A stretch of DNA of 44,806 bases from NCBI GenBank assembly GCA_029884425.1, contig JAOUHV010000020.1, forward strand, positions 1 through 44,806, in the 5' to 3' direction. Both the position numbers and the translations under genes were made by a program. This DNA comes from Gammaproteobacteria bacterium (GTDB lineage: Bacteria > Pseudomonadota > Gammaproteobacteria > S012-40). Each line of letters begins with the position of its first letter. Positions within the stretch are counted from its first letter, which is position 1. Below are positions 18,956 to 35,523 of this stretch, piece after piece. Below the pieces are notes generated by a model. That model did no database searches and had not been told where the DNA came from. It saw only the letters and a program-made list of their open reading frames with translations.

Positions 18956-21442
18956 ATGTCGTTACCGATTGAAGCCTATCTCGCGCCGCTGCAGCAGCTG
19001 CTGGTCCAGCATCCCAATGTCATTTTGCAGGCTGAACCCGGCGCGGGGAAAACCACCGTCGTGCCGCTGGCCTTGCTGCAGGCGCCGTGGCTGGCCGGCC
19101 AGCGCATTGTGATGCTGGAGCCGCGTCGTCTGGCGGCACGCAGCGTCGCGGTGTACATGGCCAGTTGTCTGGGCGAGGAACCGGGGCAGACCGTGGGATA
19201 TCGCACCCGCATGGACAGCAAGGTGAGCAAGCAGACCCGGCTGGAAGTGGTCACCGAAGGTGTGCTGACGCGCATGTTGCAGGATGATCCTGCGCTGGAA
19301 GCCTATGGATTGGTGATTTTTGACGAATTTCACGAACGATCGCTGCAGGCCGATCTGGCGCTGGCGCTGTGTCTGGATGTGCAGGCGAATCTGCGCGACG
19401 AGCTGAAGCTGCTGCTGATGTCGGCCACCCTGGACAGCGATGTGCTCAGCCGCATGCTGGGGCAGGCGCCCGTGCTGAATTGTCCGGGCAGGCAGTTTCC
19501 GGTGACGGTGAATTACCGCCCCTGCGAGCCTCGCCAGCGCTGGGATGTACTGGTCAGCGTGATCATGCAGGCGTTGCAGCAACACGCTGGCAGCCAGTTG
19601 GTGTTTTTGCCCGGCAGTGGCGAGATTCGACGGGTGGAAGAAATGCTGCGCCAGCAATCGCTGCCGGCGGAGGTGCTGATTGCTCCGCTGTATGGCGATC
19701 TGGATCGGCAGCAGCAACTGCAGGCGATTACCGCGCCCGCGCCGGGGCGGCGCAAGATTGTGCTGGCGACCAACATCGCCGAGACCAGTTTGACCATCGA
19801 AGGCGTCAATGTGGTGATCGACAGCGGGCAGGCGCGGCAGGCGCGATTCGATGCTGACAGCGGTATGAGCCGGCTGCAGTTGCGGCAGATTTCCCAGGCT
19901 TCGGCGCGGCAGCGTGCCGGACGTGCCGGGCGTCTGCAGGCGGGGGTGTGCTACCGGCTGTGGGCGGAGGCCGAGCAAGCGCGGATGCTGGAATTTGACG
20001 ATGCCGAAATCAAATCCGCCGACATGCTGCCATTGGTGCTGGAACTGGCGCAGTGGGGCGTGCGCGACCTGAACCAGTTGCGCTGGCTGGACGTGCCCAG
20101 TGCCGGCAGCGTTGAGCAGGCGCGGACGTTGGCGCGGCAGCTGGAGTTGCTCGACGAGCAGGGGCAGTTGACCGAACTGGGGCGGCAGGCGGCGAAGTTG
20201 GGCGTGCATCCCCGTCTGGCGCACATGATGCTGCGCGCCAGCCAGCTGGGGCTGGGCGAGGCCGCGTGCGAGCTGGCGGCGATGCTGGGCGAGCGACCGC
20301 TGCTGGGCAATCAGGAAGCCGACCTGTGGGAACATTTTCAGGCGCTGCAGGCCGCCAAGCGTGGCAAGTCGCGTCAGGATGCCGGACTGGTGCAGCGCAT
20401 CGTCCGTCAGGCGGGGCAATGGCAGCGACAACTGGCAGGCAGTGGCGGCCAGATTCGTGAGGCGAGTCAGCTCGGTTTGCTGCTGGCACTGGCCTATCCT
20501 GATCGGGTCGCGATGTTGCGCAGTCCCGGCAGTGGCCGTTACCGCCTGAGCAATGGTCGTGGCGCGGCATTGGTGGCGCATCACCCGCTGGCAACACACC
20601 CATTTCTGGCCGTGGCCGAGCTGGGCAGCGACGCGGCCGAGCCGGTGATCCGGCTGGCGGCTCCGCTGCTGGAAGCTGATCTGCGCCAGCAGTTTGCAGC
20701 CCAGATCGAACAGTTCGACCAGGTTGGCTGGGACAGGGCCAGTGGTGCGGTGGTGGCGCAACGGCAGTGGCGGCTGGGCGAGCTGTTGTTGCAAAAACAG
20801 GAGCTGACACCGGATACGGCTCAGCGGCAGCAGGGTTTGCTGCAGGGCATACGCCAACAAGGTCTGGATTGTTTGCCGTGGGACGATGGCAGTCGTCAGC
20901 TGTGCGCACGGTTACAGTTGCTGCGCGAGTGGTTGCCGGAACAGGGTTGGCCGGATTGTTCGGCGCAAGCTCTGCTGGACACGCTGGAGGGCTGGCTGTT
21001 GCCGTATCTAGACCGCATGAACCGTCTTACTCACCTGTCGCAACTGAATCTGCGCGATATTCTGCTGGCCAGACTGGACTGGAACCAACAGCAACAACTG
21101 GAGGCATTGGCGCCTACGCATTTTGTAGTGCCGACCGGTTCGCGCATTGCCATCGATTACAGTGTCCAGCCGCCGGTATTGGCGGTACGGCTGCAGGAAT
21201 TATTCGGCTATGACCAGCATCCCAGTATCGCCCAGGGGCGATTGCCGCTGACGTTGCATCTGTTGTCGCCGGCCATGCGCCCGGCGCAGGTTACCCAGAA
21301 TCTGCCCGGCTTCTGGCGTGACAGTTATCAGTTGGTGAAGAAGGATTTGAAGGGGCGTTATCCCAAGCACTCCTGGCCCGATGATCCGCTGCAGGCGGTG
21401 GCGATACGCGGCACCAAGAAACAGTCAGGTAACCTGCCCTGA
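18956..21442 (+). CDS. hrpB: ATP-dependent RNA helicase HrpB
   Basis: HrpB is a DEAH-type helicase of unknown cellular target, widespread in proteobacteria. The 828-aa product has the full motif set: Walker A GAGKTT (29-34), motif Ia LEPRRLAARS, motif II DEFH (123-126), motif III SATLD, motif V ATNIAETSLTIEGV and motif VI QRAGRAGR. A helical HA2-like domain follows, and the HrpB-specific C-terminal region ends with LPGFWRDSYQLVKKDLKGRYPKHSWPDDP. Length is typical. The gap that follows has no gene and contains DnaA-box repeats. Confidence 0.96.
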   Translation: MSLPIEAYLAPLQQLLVQHPNVILQAEPGAGKTTVVPLALLQAPWLAGQRIVMLEPRRLAARSVAVYMASCLGEEPGQTVGYRTRMDSKVSKQTRLEVVTEGVLTRMLQDDPALEAYGLVIFDEFHERSLQADLALALCLDVQANLRDELKLLLMSATLDSDVLSRMLGQAPVLNCPGRQFPVTVNYRPCEPRQRWDVLVSVIMQALQQHAGSQLVFLPGSGEIRRVEEMLRQQSLPAEVLIAPLYGDLDRQQQLQAITAPAPGRRKIVLATNIAETSLTIEGVNVVIDSGQARQARFDADSGMSRLQLRQISQASARQRAGRAGRLQAGVCYRLWAEAEQARMLEFDDAEIKSADMLPLVLELAQWGVRDLNQLRWLDVPSAGSVEQARTLARQLELLDEQGQLTELGRQAAKLGVHPRLAHMMLRASQLGLGEAACELAAMLGERPLLGNQEADLWEHFQALQAAKRGKSRQDAGLVQRIVRQAGQWQRQLAGSGGQIREASQLGLLLALAYPDRVAMLRSPGSGRYRLSNGRGAALVAHHPLATHPFLAVAELGSDAAEPVIRLAAPLLEADLRQQFAAQIEQFDQVGWDRASGAVVAQRQWRLGELLLQKQELTPDTAQRQQGLLQGIRQQGLDCLPWDDGSRQLCARLQLLREWLPEQGWPDCSAQALLDTLEGWLLPYLDRMNRLTHLSQLNLRDILLARLDWNQQQQLEALAPTHFVVPTGSRIAIDYSVQPPVLAVRLQELFGYDQHPSIAQGRLPLTLHLLSPAMRPAQVTQNLPGFWRDSYQLVKKDLKGRYPKHSWPDDPLQAVAIRGTKKQSGNLP

Positions 21443-21482
21443 GTCGCAGCGAGACAATCAGTGCAAGCGCTGATGTGAGCGG

Positions 21483-21732
21483 TTGCTAGCGTCTTTTTGT
21501 CAAGCGATTGCCAAATAATTGTCAGACTTTTCCACAGCGAAAATTTTGATTGACAGCCATCGGTGAAAATTTCCTGCCTAACTTGGCTTGACTTATAAAA
21601 TCGCATATAAAACATATAGTTACGTCATGGCTAGTTTTTTGATCAATTTAAAGTGGAGCACCATATCATGCGGGTTTGAGCCACTTTCCCCCAATGCATC
21701 CACATACTTATCCACAGGTTTTGTGGATAAGT
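21483..21732 (+). repeat. Origin-like unit, copy A
   Basis: In order this unit has: a 21-mer TTGCTAGCGT... ending CTTTTTGTCAA (21483-21503); a TTTTCCACA box (21528-21536); an AT-rich block around 21590-21650; GATCAATTTAAAG (21641-21653); CTTTCCCCCAA (21684-21694); and the palindrome made of TTATCCACA (21708-21716), a 5-bp spacer and TGTGGATAA (21722-21730). From the GATC element to the first consensus DnaA box is 67 bp, identical to copy B. Confidence 0.75.
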
Positions 21733-22026
21733 GAAAAATTCGTAGGCAGATGCCTGAGTTAGCCTCGTTTGTGCAATTTGAGGGTGAATGATGCGCGGTA
21801 TCTCTGGGGAAAATATCCGGGATGAGGTGTGGATGAGGGGGGAGTGAAAATGGGTTTGGGGGCGAGATTTGGGACTGGCGAGAATGGCGCGACTCTGGTT
21901 GGATGATTGGTAGCGCGGAGGGGGAGTTGTAGCTGGAACAGGCGTTTTATTGCTCGTGTGGAAAACCGTCGCGCGAAAGCTTGCGGAGGCAATCTTGGAT
22001 TGTAGTTTGTCACCGAAAGTGGGTGT
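21733..22026. other. G-rich spacer between the two origin-like units
   Basis: This is a 294-bp spacer without a gene. The plus strand is markedly G-rich, with four G-tracts (21837-21842, 21852-21854, 21858-21862, 21871-21873) that could form a quadruplex with long loops. It also has single-mismatch DnaA boxes at 21828-21836 and 21957-21965, both in the reverse orientation. Confidence 0.5.
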
Positions 22027-22284
22027 TTGCTAACGCCTTTTTGTCAATGCAAAGCCAATTTCTTGGCGAGGTTTTCCACAGCGGTCTTATTTTGTACGAG
22101 GAGCGCTGATTGGATGTCGGGAGTGGCTGGAATTTGATTTTTATTCAATAAATACAATAAAAACAGCTAGTTATAATTGAGTGAAAAATGATCAATTTAA
22201 AGCGTTGGCCGATTTGGCAAGAACAAACCCAGCTTTCCCCCAAGAGATGCACAGAGTTATCCACAGATTTTGTGGATAACTCTG
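22027..22284 (+). repeat. Origin-like unit, copy B
   Basis: It repeats the layout of copy A: the 21-mer ending CTTTTTGTCAA (22027-22047, 2 mismatches to copy A); TTTTCCACA (22072-22080); an AT-rich block around 22135-22190; GATCAATTTAAAG (22190-22202); CTTTCCCCCAA (22233-22243); then TTATCCACA (22257-22265), a 5-bp spacer and TGTGGATAA (22271-22279). The palindrome has 14-bp perfect arms here (22252-22265 with 22271-22284). Sequence between these blocks is not conserved with copy A. Confidence 0.75.
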
Positions 22285-22305
22285 GGGCTGTGAATGTTGT
22301 GGATG

Positions 22306-22773
22306 TCAGGCGACGCCAGTGACTGGATTTTTCGCCGCGCCGGTGCCAAGAGGCGGGTGGTTGTTGTCCATTTCGGTTTCGGTATCGAAGTCCATGGTTT
22401 GGTAGCGTGGTGCGAGGCGAGGGCTTTCTACATCGTCATTGGTGGCGTCGTGAGCGTTGCCCTCCAGCGGCTGGGTCAGTTGCTGTGGTGGGTTTTCGCA
22501 TAGCACCTGGGCACCATTGCTGAGGTGTTGATAAATTTTTTGGTAATTGCTGGCCATTTCCTGCAGTAATTGCGCACTTTGGCTGAAGTGCTGGTCGACT
22601 TTTTGCCGGTAGAGCACTTGTTCGCGCTGCATGTCCTGCAGTTGGGCTTCCATCTCGGCGGAGCGTTTGCGGTAGTTTTTGAGGTAGAGGTTGCGGTTGA
22701 CCAGTGCGCCAATGCCGGCGCCGGCGGCCAGGGCGATCAGGCCGACAACCCATGTGATGGCAGATCCTTCCAT
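22306..22773 (-). CDS. zapG: ZapG/YhcB-type cell envelope protein (DUF1043)
   Basis: This inner-membrane protein has one N-terminal transmembrane helix (ITWVVGLIALAAGAGIGALV, residues 6-26) and a cytoplasmic coiled coil (RKRSAEMEAQLQDMQREQVLYRQKVDQHFSQSAQLLQEM), then SNYQKIYQHLSNGAQVLC. These are hallmarks of YhcB, renamed ZapG, which links cell division and envelope synthesis. It has 155 aa with a low-complexity acidic tail. AGGA lies about seven bases before the ATG. It reads leftward and ends at the edge of the origin-like region. Confidence 0.9.
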   Translation of the reverse strand: MEGSAITWVVGLIALAAGAGIGALVNRNLYLKNYRKRSAEMEAQLQDMQREQVLYRQKVDQHFSQSAQLLQEMASNYQKIYQHLSNGAQVLCENPPQQLTQPLEGNAHDATNDDVESPRLAPRYQTMDFDTETEMDNNHPPLGTGAAKNPVTGVA

Positions 22774-34173: not shown

Positions 34174-35523
34174 TCAGGCGAGAAAAATAGAGGCAAGCCC
34201 CAGGAACGCAAAAAAGCCAACCACGTCTGTCACTGTGGTGAGGATGACGCTGCCGGCCAGCGCCGGATCGGCACCATAGCGGATCAGCATCAACGGGATG
34301 GTGGCACCGGCGAGGGCGGCGACGATCAGGTTGGTGATGATTGCAAAGGCGATGATGGCGCCAAGGGAGACGCTGCTAAACCACAGCGCCGACAGCACGC
34401 CGATCACGATGGCCCAAATGATGCCGTTGACCGCACCCACCGCCAGCTCTTTGCGCAGCAGGATGCGGGAGTTGGTCTTGCCGATCTTGCCCAAGGCGAG
34501 GCCACGGGTAACCAGGGTGAGCGTCTGGCTGCCGGCGATGCCGCCCATGCTGGCGACGATGGGCATGAGTATCGCCAGGGCGACCAGATTTTCGATGGTG
34601 GCGTCGAACAGGCTGATGACCCAGGACGCCAGTAATGCAGTGAGCAGGTTGATCCCCAGCCAGACGGTACGGCGTTGGGCGCTGCGAACCACCGGCGCAA
34701 ACATGTCGGTTTCTTCGTCCAGACCGGCCGAACTCATGTAGGTATGGTCGGCTTCTTCGAGGATAACGTCGACCACGTCGTCGATGGTGATCCGGCCCAG
34801 TACCCGCTGCTGGCTGTCGACCACCGGTGCCGAGACCAGGTTGCGGCGGGCGAACAGATCGGCAACATCATGGGTGGTGGCGCTGGCGAGGATCGCGGGG
34901 ACATCCCGCAGCATGGCGTCCTTGACCTCCGTGTCCGGGTCCAGGGTCACCAGTGCAACCAGTGGCAGGATGCCAAGCAGTACGCCATCACGATCCACGA
35001 CGACCAGCGAGTCAGTGTTTTCCGGCAGTTTGCCGCGGGTGCGGGTGTAGCGCTGTACCACTTCCAGGGTCACGTCCGGGCGCACGGTGACCGCGTCGAT
35101 GTTCATCAGGCCGCCTGCGGTATCCTCGGAAAATTGCAGTACCGCTTCCAGGCGATTGCGGTTCTGCTCGTCCATGGACTGCAGCAGTTCGTTAATGACG
35201 GTTTCCGGCAAGTCGGGAAGAATGTCCGCCAGGTCGTCGGTGTCGAGTTTCTCGGTGGCGGCGAGCAGCTCTTCCTTGGCCATGTCGCCAATGAACAGTG
35301 CGCGGATTTCGTCATTAACGTAAGTGAGAATATCGCCATCAAGCGATGGGTCGACCAGTTCCCAGGCCCGCACGCGATGCTCGCGCGGCAGAGCTTCAAG
35401 CAGGTGGGCAATTTCAGCCGGGTGCAGGCTGTTGAGCAGAACGCCGGCGTCGGTGACATTGTCCTGCTGTAGCCAGCGGCTGATTTGCTGCAAGTGGTCG
35501 GCGATTTGATCCGTAGCCTGCAT
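34174..35523 (-). CDS. mgtE: MgtE-type magnesium transporter
   Basis: This 449-aa protein has the MgtE layout: a helical N-domain (LLNSLHPAEIAHLLEALPREHRVRAWEL), two CBS domains (from about residue 140, LVVVDRDGVLLGILPLVAL and APVVDSQQRVLGRITIDDVVDVI), the plug helix, and five membrane helices with the pore motif in GGIAGSQTLTLVTRGLALG. It is predicted to be a Mg2+-gated Mg2+ channel of the inner membrane. It is 31 bases downstream of the HPr gene on the same strand and ends the long kds-lpt-rpoN-pts block. Confidence 0.93.
   Translation of the reverse strand: MQATDQIADHLQQISRWLQQDNVTDAGVLLNSLHPAEIAHLLEALPREHRVRAWELVDPSLDGDILTYVNDEIRALFIGDMAKEELLAATEKLDTDDLADILPDLPETVINELLQSMDEQNRNRLEAVLQFSEDTAGGLMNIDAVTVRPDVTLEVVQRYTRTRGKLPENTDSLVVVDRDGVLLGILPLVALVTLDPDTEVKDAMLRDVPAILASATTHDVADLFARRNLVSAPVVDSQQRVLGRITIDDVVDVILEEADHTYMSSAGLDEETDMFAPVVRSAQRRTVWLGINLLTALLASWVISLFDATIENLVALAILMPIVASMGGIAGSQTLTLVTRGLALGKIGKTNSRILLRKELAVGAVNGIIWAIVIGVLSALWFSSVSLGAIIAFAIITNLIVAALAGATIPLMLIRYGADPALAGSVILTTVTDVVGFFAFLGLASIFLA

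Follow-up and report, generated by a model that had tools for sequence, protein, structure and literature searches.

The analysed stretch of DNA (44,806 bp, hereafter the window) contains an 863-bp gap (21443-22305) where the 3′ ends of hrpB and a zapG-like gene converge, and this gap is occupied by two tandem units, A and B, repeated with a period of 549 bp (Table 1). Each unit holds two perfect TTATCCACA DnaA boxes in inverted orientation, separated by a 5-bp spacer; this pairing had been described in the initial annotation and was confirmed when the coordinates were re-read from the sequence. Other features named there were also recovered, including the block GATCAATTTAAAG 67 bp ahead of box II in both units, the block CTTTCCCCCAA 24 bp ahead of it (starts 21684 and 22233), the shared 21-mers, and the general pattern of conserved blocks amid diverged sequence, which is seen in the alignment of unit A with unit B. 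The upstream box TTTTCCACA is present in both units as claimed, but not in a fixed register, as it lies 180 bp from box II in unit A and 185 bp in unit B. A third DnaA box, absent from the initial annotation, was located 3 bp ahead of each palindrome, with two mismatches in each unit. The order is therefore box III, 3 bp, box II, 5 bp and inverted box I (III-3-II-5-inverted-I).

Three occurrences of the palindrome TTATCCACA-N5-TGTGGATAA were counted in the 2.9-Mb genome, whereas its reversed control pattern gave no match in the same genome and the palindrome was found in none of 20 first-order-Markov copies of the window, indicating that it is not a product of chance. A scan for further copies, as had been suggested, identified the third unit on contig C50, just upstream of priA and with the same III-3-II-5-inverted-I layout. 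A search for RNA elements and tRNAs found none. The spacer between the units (21740-22020) is noncoding and G-rich on the + strand, and nothing was recognised there.

Table 1. Features of the hrpB–zapG gap and its two flanking genes. Negative offsets are counted from box III; DARS, DnaA-reactivating sequence.
Feature	Position	Strand	Basis or remark
hrpB (ATP-dependent helicase)	18956-21442	+	TIGR01970, 1053.8 bits; 3′ end faces the units
Unit A, 21-mer TTGCTAGCGTCTTTTTGTCAA	21483-21503	+	19/21 positions identical to 22027-22047
Unit A, distal DnaA box TTTTCCACA	21528-21536	+	Perfect match to TTWTNCACA; -168
Unit A, IHF-like site AAACATATAGTTA	21610-21622	+	-86; 2 mismatches to WATCAANNNNTTR
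Unit A, block GATCAATTTAAAG	21641-21653	+	No gaps relative to core across 22 family copies
Unit A, candidate degenerate fourth DnaA box TTTCCCCCA	21685-21693	+	Corresponds to CTTTCCCCCAA; 2 mismatches to TTWTNCACA; 2 bp before box III
Unit A, putative DARS-type core	21696-21730	+	III-3-II-5-inverted-I layout as in E. coli DARS1/DARS2; unbiased box III position test
Unit A, box III GCATCCACA	21696-21704	+	
Unit A, box II TTATCCACA	21708-21716	+	Perfect
Unit A, inverted box I	21722-21730	-	Perfect
Unit B, 21-mer TTGCTAACGCCTTTTTGTCAA	22027-22047	+	Overlaps terminator-like hairpin 22021-22038
Unit B, distal DnaA box TTTTCCACA	22072-22080	+	-173
Unit B, IHF-like site AAACAGCTAGTTA	22161-22173	+	-84; 2 mismatches
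Unit B, block GATCAATTTAAAG	22190-22202	+	No gaps relative to core across 22 family copies
Unit B, candidate degenerate fourth DnaA box TTTCCCCCA	22234-22242	+	Same gap test as unit A
Unit B, putative DARS-type core	22245-22279	+	Same layout and box III position test as unit A
Unit B, box III AGATGCACA	22245-22253	+	
Unit B, box II TTATCCACA	22257-22265	+	Perfect
Unit B, inverted box I	22271-22279	-	Perfect
zapG-like gene	22306-22773	-	NF008672, E 4e-17, 62.4 of 150 bits (below curated cut-off); 3′ end faces the units

Core geometry

The III-3-II-5-inverted-I arrangement is identical in units A and B, in the priA copy, and in both E. coli DARS1 (TAATACACA-TGG-TTATCCACA-GGAAT-AGTGGATAA) and E. 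coli DARS2 (TTCTTCACA-ACT-CTATCCACA-GAAAA-GGTGAATAA). According to a review, the box spacing is equal at DARS1 and DARS2, and box I is opposite to boxes II and III (PMC5742627). The spacing was also tested with no layout presupposed, by collecting, from 56 genomes, every perfect box pair whose spacer measured 0-25 bp. The 5-bp spacer was found in 45 of the 48 pairs, and one of the remaining three joined boxes III and I of a single unit. A third box (≤2 mismatches) was located at exactly 3 bp in 43 of these 45 pairs, while most other gaps gave 0-3. As a positive control, the pattern applied to Enterobacteriaceae recovered DARS1 between bioD and uvrB (94-95% identity to E. coli UvrB).

E. coli DARS1 resembles units A and B in its three boxes, their equal spacing and orientation, and its noncoding gap; however, it is a single copy beside uvrB, and its scanned flank is without an IHF-consensus site. 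E. coli DARS2 (rppH-mutH) has the same core geometry, but is also single and occupies another genomic place. Two of the marks by which a DARS is recognised, namely a three-box core with box I opposite to boxes II and III at the DARS1/DARS2 spacing, and a place in noncoding DNA away from oriC, were found for the units. Judged from these sequence features, the gap probably carries two tandem DARS-type elements, with a third copy upstream of priA, and we put the probability of this reading at about three in four.

The best-surviving alternative, though an unlikely one, is that the units form a DnaA sink or an inactivating site (titration or datA-like), which would lower free or ATP-bound DnaA and be enlarged by the doubling. 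The many strong boxes per unit, the duplication of the unit and the IHF-like site would suit titration or datA-type hydrolysis as well, and E. coli datA likewise combines clustered DnaA boxes with an IHF site, within a noncoding gap (PMC5742627). Nevertheless, the III-3-II-5-I geometry of DARS1 and DARS2 is missing from datA, where the best match has 6 mismatches, and the datA type was rejected for the units because they possess this geometry. A plain sink, moreover, needs no fixed 3-bp/5-bp spacing, yet the spacing is nearly invariant.

Flanking module

Upstream of the core, the family set of 22 copies could be aligned gap-free over ~100 bp. The block CTTTCCCCCAA next to box III reads as a degenerate fourth DnaA box; one relative (L194) has a perfect TTTTCCACA in this place, and a box-like 9-mer was present at this gap in 20 examined flanks, compared with 0-3 at most other gaps. 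The GATCAATTTAAAG block, near -50, has a family consensus of approximately C[AG]AT[CT]T[AG]A. GATC itself is not conserved in it, and an E. coli-type 13-mer or GATC-methylation block was rejected because the family copies do not keep GATC. A Fis site was also rejected for this block, since the window copies are without a consensus match. No exact Fis consensus was found in the two window units, and the priA copy has one exact match at -66. DARS1 does not need the DARS2-type Fis sites (FBS2-3).

Nearly all of the 22 family copies have an IHF-like site at -84 to -86, which is consensus-perfect in some of them, and these three offsets together account for 21 matches with ≤2 mismatches. When the whole upstream stretch was considered, the best IHF-like site per copy had 0-1 mismatch in 20/22 copies, versus ~4.8 in mononucleotide shuffles; the sites of the window units are weaker than those of most relatives. 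Further upstream, a perfect R-box on the same strand occurs at -165 to -177 in 12 of the 22 copies, and only two others occur elsewhere in the scanned flanks. Many family copies also contain a TGTCAA motif at about -150, ~20-25 bp past the distal DnaA box, which resembles the end of the 21-mer shared by units A and B.

In E. coli DARS2, IHF-consensus sites on the box III side were found at -87 and -71, in agreement with the published IBS1-2, 3 bp apart (PMC4245941), and they compare with a site at about -85 in the units. The distal DnaA box of DARS2 is at -185 and on the other strand, unlike those of units A and B. The essential Fis sites of DARS2 are located past its IHF sites (PMC4245941), but no such sites were found in units A and B. 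On the other hand, the C[AG]AT[CT]T[AG]A block and the core-adjoining TTTCCCCCA box of the units have not been described for DARS2, and no counterpart of the GATCAATTTAAAG block was identified in E. coli DARS2. In their flanking module the window units thus appear to resemble DARS2 more than DARS1, with weak IHF-like sites of their own.

Distribution and gene neighbours

The core (≤1 mismatch) was detected in 165 of 276 genomes of the class, mostly with 1-3 copies each, and its reversed control gave no match in these 276 genomes. The class is Gammaproteobacteria, as the enterobacterial DARS1 matches fall within it. In a second survey, matches were counted in about 44 of 89 genomes within the class and in about 24 of 160 outside it; because of the three-box matches in the other classes, the core alone is no proof of DARS function. 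Among the named genomes, 20 of 80 units were within ~500 bp of priA (in Xanthomonas, Dyella, Cycloclasticus and others), and other units neighboured genes that we take, from their sequence, to be hemW/gltA, xseA/exbB, rimI/lpdA and rpmE. No such unit was found in the E. coli priA region. Betaproteobacterial units (L051, L062, L070 and L075) lie between genes read as xseA and exbB, a conserved site other than priA.

Within the family of the window, a unit lies 3′ of zapG in three genomes (G001, G007 and G008) and near neighbouring genes in others, and units also occur upstream of priA. The comparison of the hrpB-zapG region among relatives, which the initial annotation had proposed, thus showed the position 3′ of zapG to be conserved. 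At the zapG locus a single copy was present in each sampled relative, so that the doubling appears to be a recent event in this lineage. Tandem pairs were also found in G002 and G432 (upstream of priA in both), G220, G269 and G189.

It is very improbable that the units represent a DnaA-controlled transcription element, such as a DnaA-regulated priA promoter of which the window copies would be displaced relics. Many copies are indeed a short way ahead of priA and oriented towards it; however, other copies are located beside unrelated genes such as hemW, xseA and rimI (names read from sequence), and E. coli DARS1 is itself upstream of uvrB, so that a promoter-side place is compatible with a DARS. 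The window copies lie between the convergent ends of hrpB and zapG and were rejected as promoter elements for this reason, and the promoter-like matches at the units numbered 1 against 1.2 expected.

Marginally less probable again would be another kind of checkpoint site built on the three-box arrangement of DnaA, such as one that triggers replication or an anchoring platform read at fork duplication. The intergenic, noncoding and positionally conserved setting would agree with such a role, as would the two copies on opposite sides of dnaA in five genomes (three of the genome lengths being rounded). The known DARS sites, however, share both the geometry and the placement on both arms (+32.9% and -20.6% in E. 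coli), and no new function is needed.

Position of the replication origin

The initial annotation had interpreted the locus as the chromosome origin with a doubled core, or alternatively as a DnaA-binding control locus, and had remarked that dnaA is not nearby. The remark is correct, as dnaA is located on contig C1 in the classical gene order gidA-mnmE-yidC-rnpA-rpmH-dnaA-dnaN-recF-gyrB. The dnaA-dnaN gap (L013 14399-14629) has 34% GC and contains two perfect DnaA boxes, 14410(-) and 14456(+). About 150 bp downstream of this gap, at 34774, the cumulative G-C of C1:1-60000 reaches its minimum. Read contig by contig, the GC-skew minimum that had been expected at the units is therefore at dnaA-dnaN. 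The skew of the window is positive throughout and does not turn at the units, and that of contig C50 is uniformly negative. The dnaA-dnaN gap is probably the oriC of this genome. Like the units, it contains DnaA boxes within AT-rich noncoding DNA; unlike them, it holds the skew minimum and is without a three-box unit, while at the units neither the skew minimum nor adjacent dnaA or origin genes were found. A doubled-core origin, whether the only one of the chromosome or a second active one, can be practically dismissed: AT-rich blocks and DnaA boxes speak for it, but the skew evidence speaks against it, and so does the occurrence of the element, which is found at two loci here and in 1-3 copies in many genomes. 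The origin part of the earlier interpretation is thus abandoned, whereas its DnaA-site part is retained in the form of a DARS-type core with predicted DnaA binding.

Proposed function

At DARS1 and DARS2, ADP-DnaA molecules bound head-to-head at boxes I and II lose their ADP, aided by IHF bending, and the resulting apo-DnaA then binds ATP (PMC5742627, PMC8682772). As DARS-type elements, units A and B could likewise promote the exchange of ADP for ATP on DnaA. ADP-DnaA would bind boxes I and II head-to-head, and box III together with the degenerate box IV would add DnaA protomers in the same orientation. IHF would bend the DNA around -85, possibly drawing the distal box near -170 into the complex. 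The head-to-head pair would then release ADP, and apo-DnaA would leave and take up ATP, supplying more ATP-DnaA for the next initiation at oriC. The binding of DnaA and IHF and an additive effect of the doubling are all predictions of this scheme. Among the encoded proteins, DnaA, Hda, IHF-alpha and Fis score above the curated cut-offs, and the best DiaA match, at 210 bits, falls short of the 276 bits set for it.

DARS have been studied in E. coli; in the open-access literature as searched, DARS-like sequences were described for its near relatives only (enterics, Vibrio and Shewanella), with nothing relevant found outside these groups. As far as this literature was searched, the kind of element is known, while its wider spread, its placement at priA and zapG, the module specific to the family and the tandem doubling are new. 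We consider it somewhat more probable than otherwise that the DARS is an old element across the Gammaproteobacteria in the broad sense (including Betaproteobacteria), commonly located upstream of priA with a second, lineage-specific site; that in this family it forms a fixed-register module of distal DnaA box, IHF site, block near -50 and four boxes; and that the tandem doubling sets the dosage of ATP-DnaA regeneration. The recurring association with priA hints at an ancestral location of the system. If the units work, the recharging of DnaA at DNA sites would be a general device of the class, and the differences that nature offers in position, number of copies and flanking module could serve as a comparative experiment on initiation timing. 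A copy number above the usual 1-3 was noted in one relative, G053 (L175-L178), with four perfect box pairs and six core matches. Outside the class (G325 and G352), some of the matches have the palindrome flanked on either side by a third box, giving a symmetrical four-box form.
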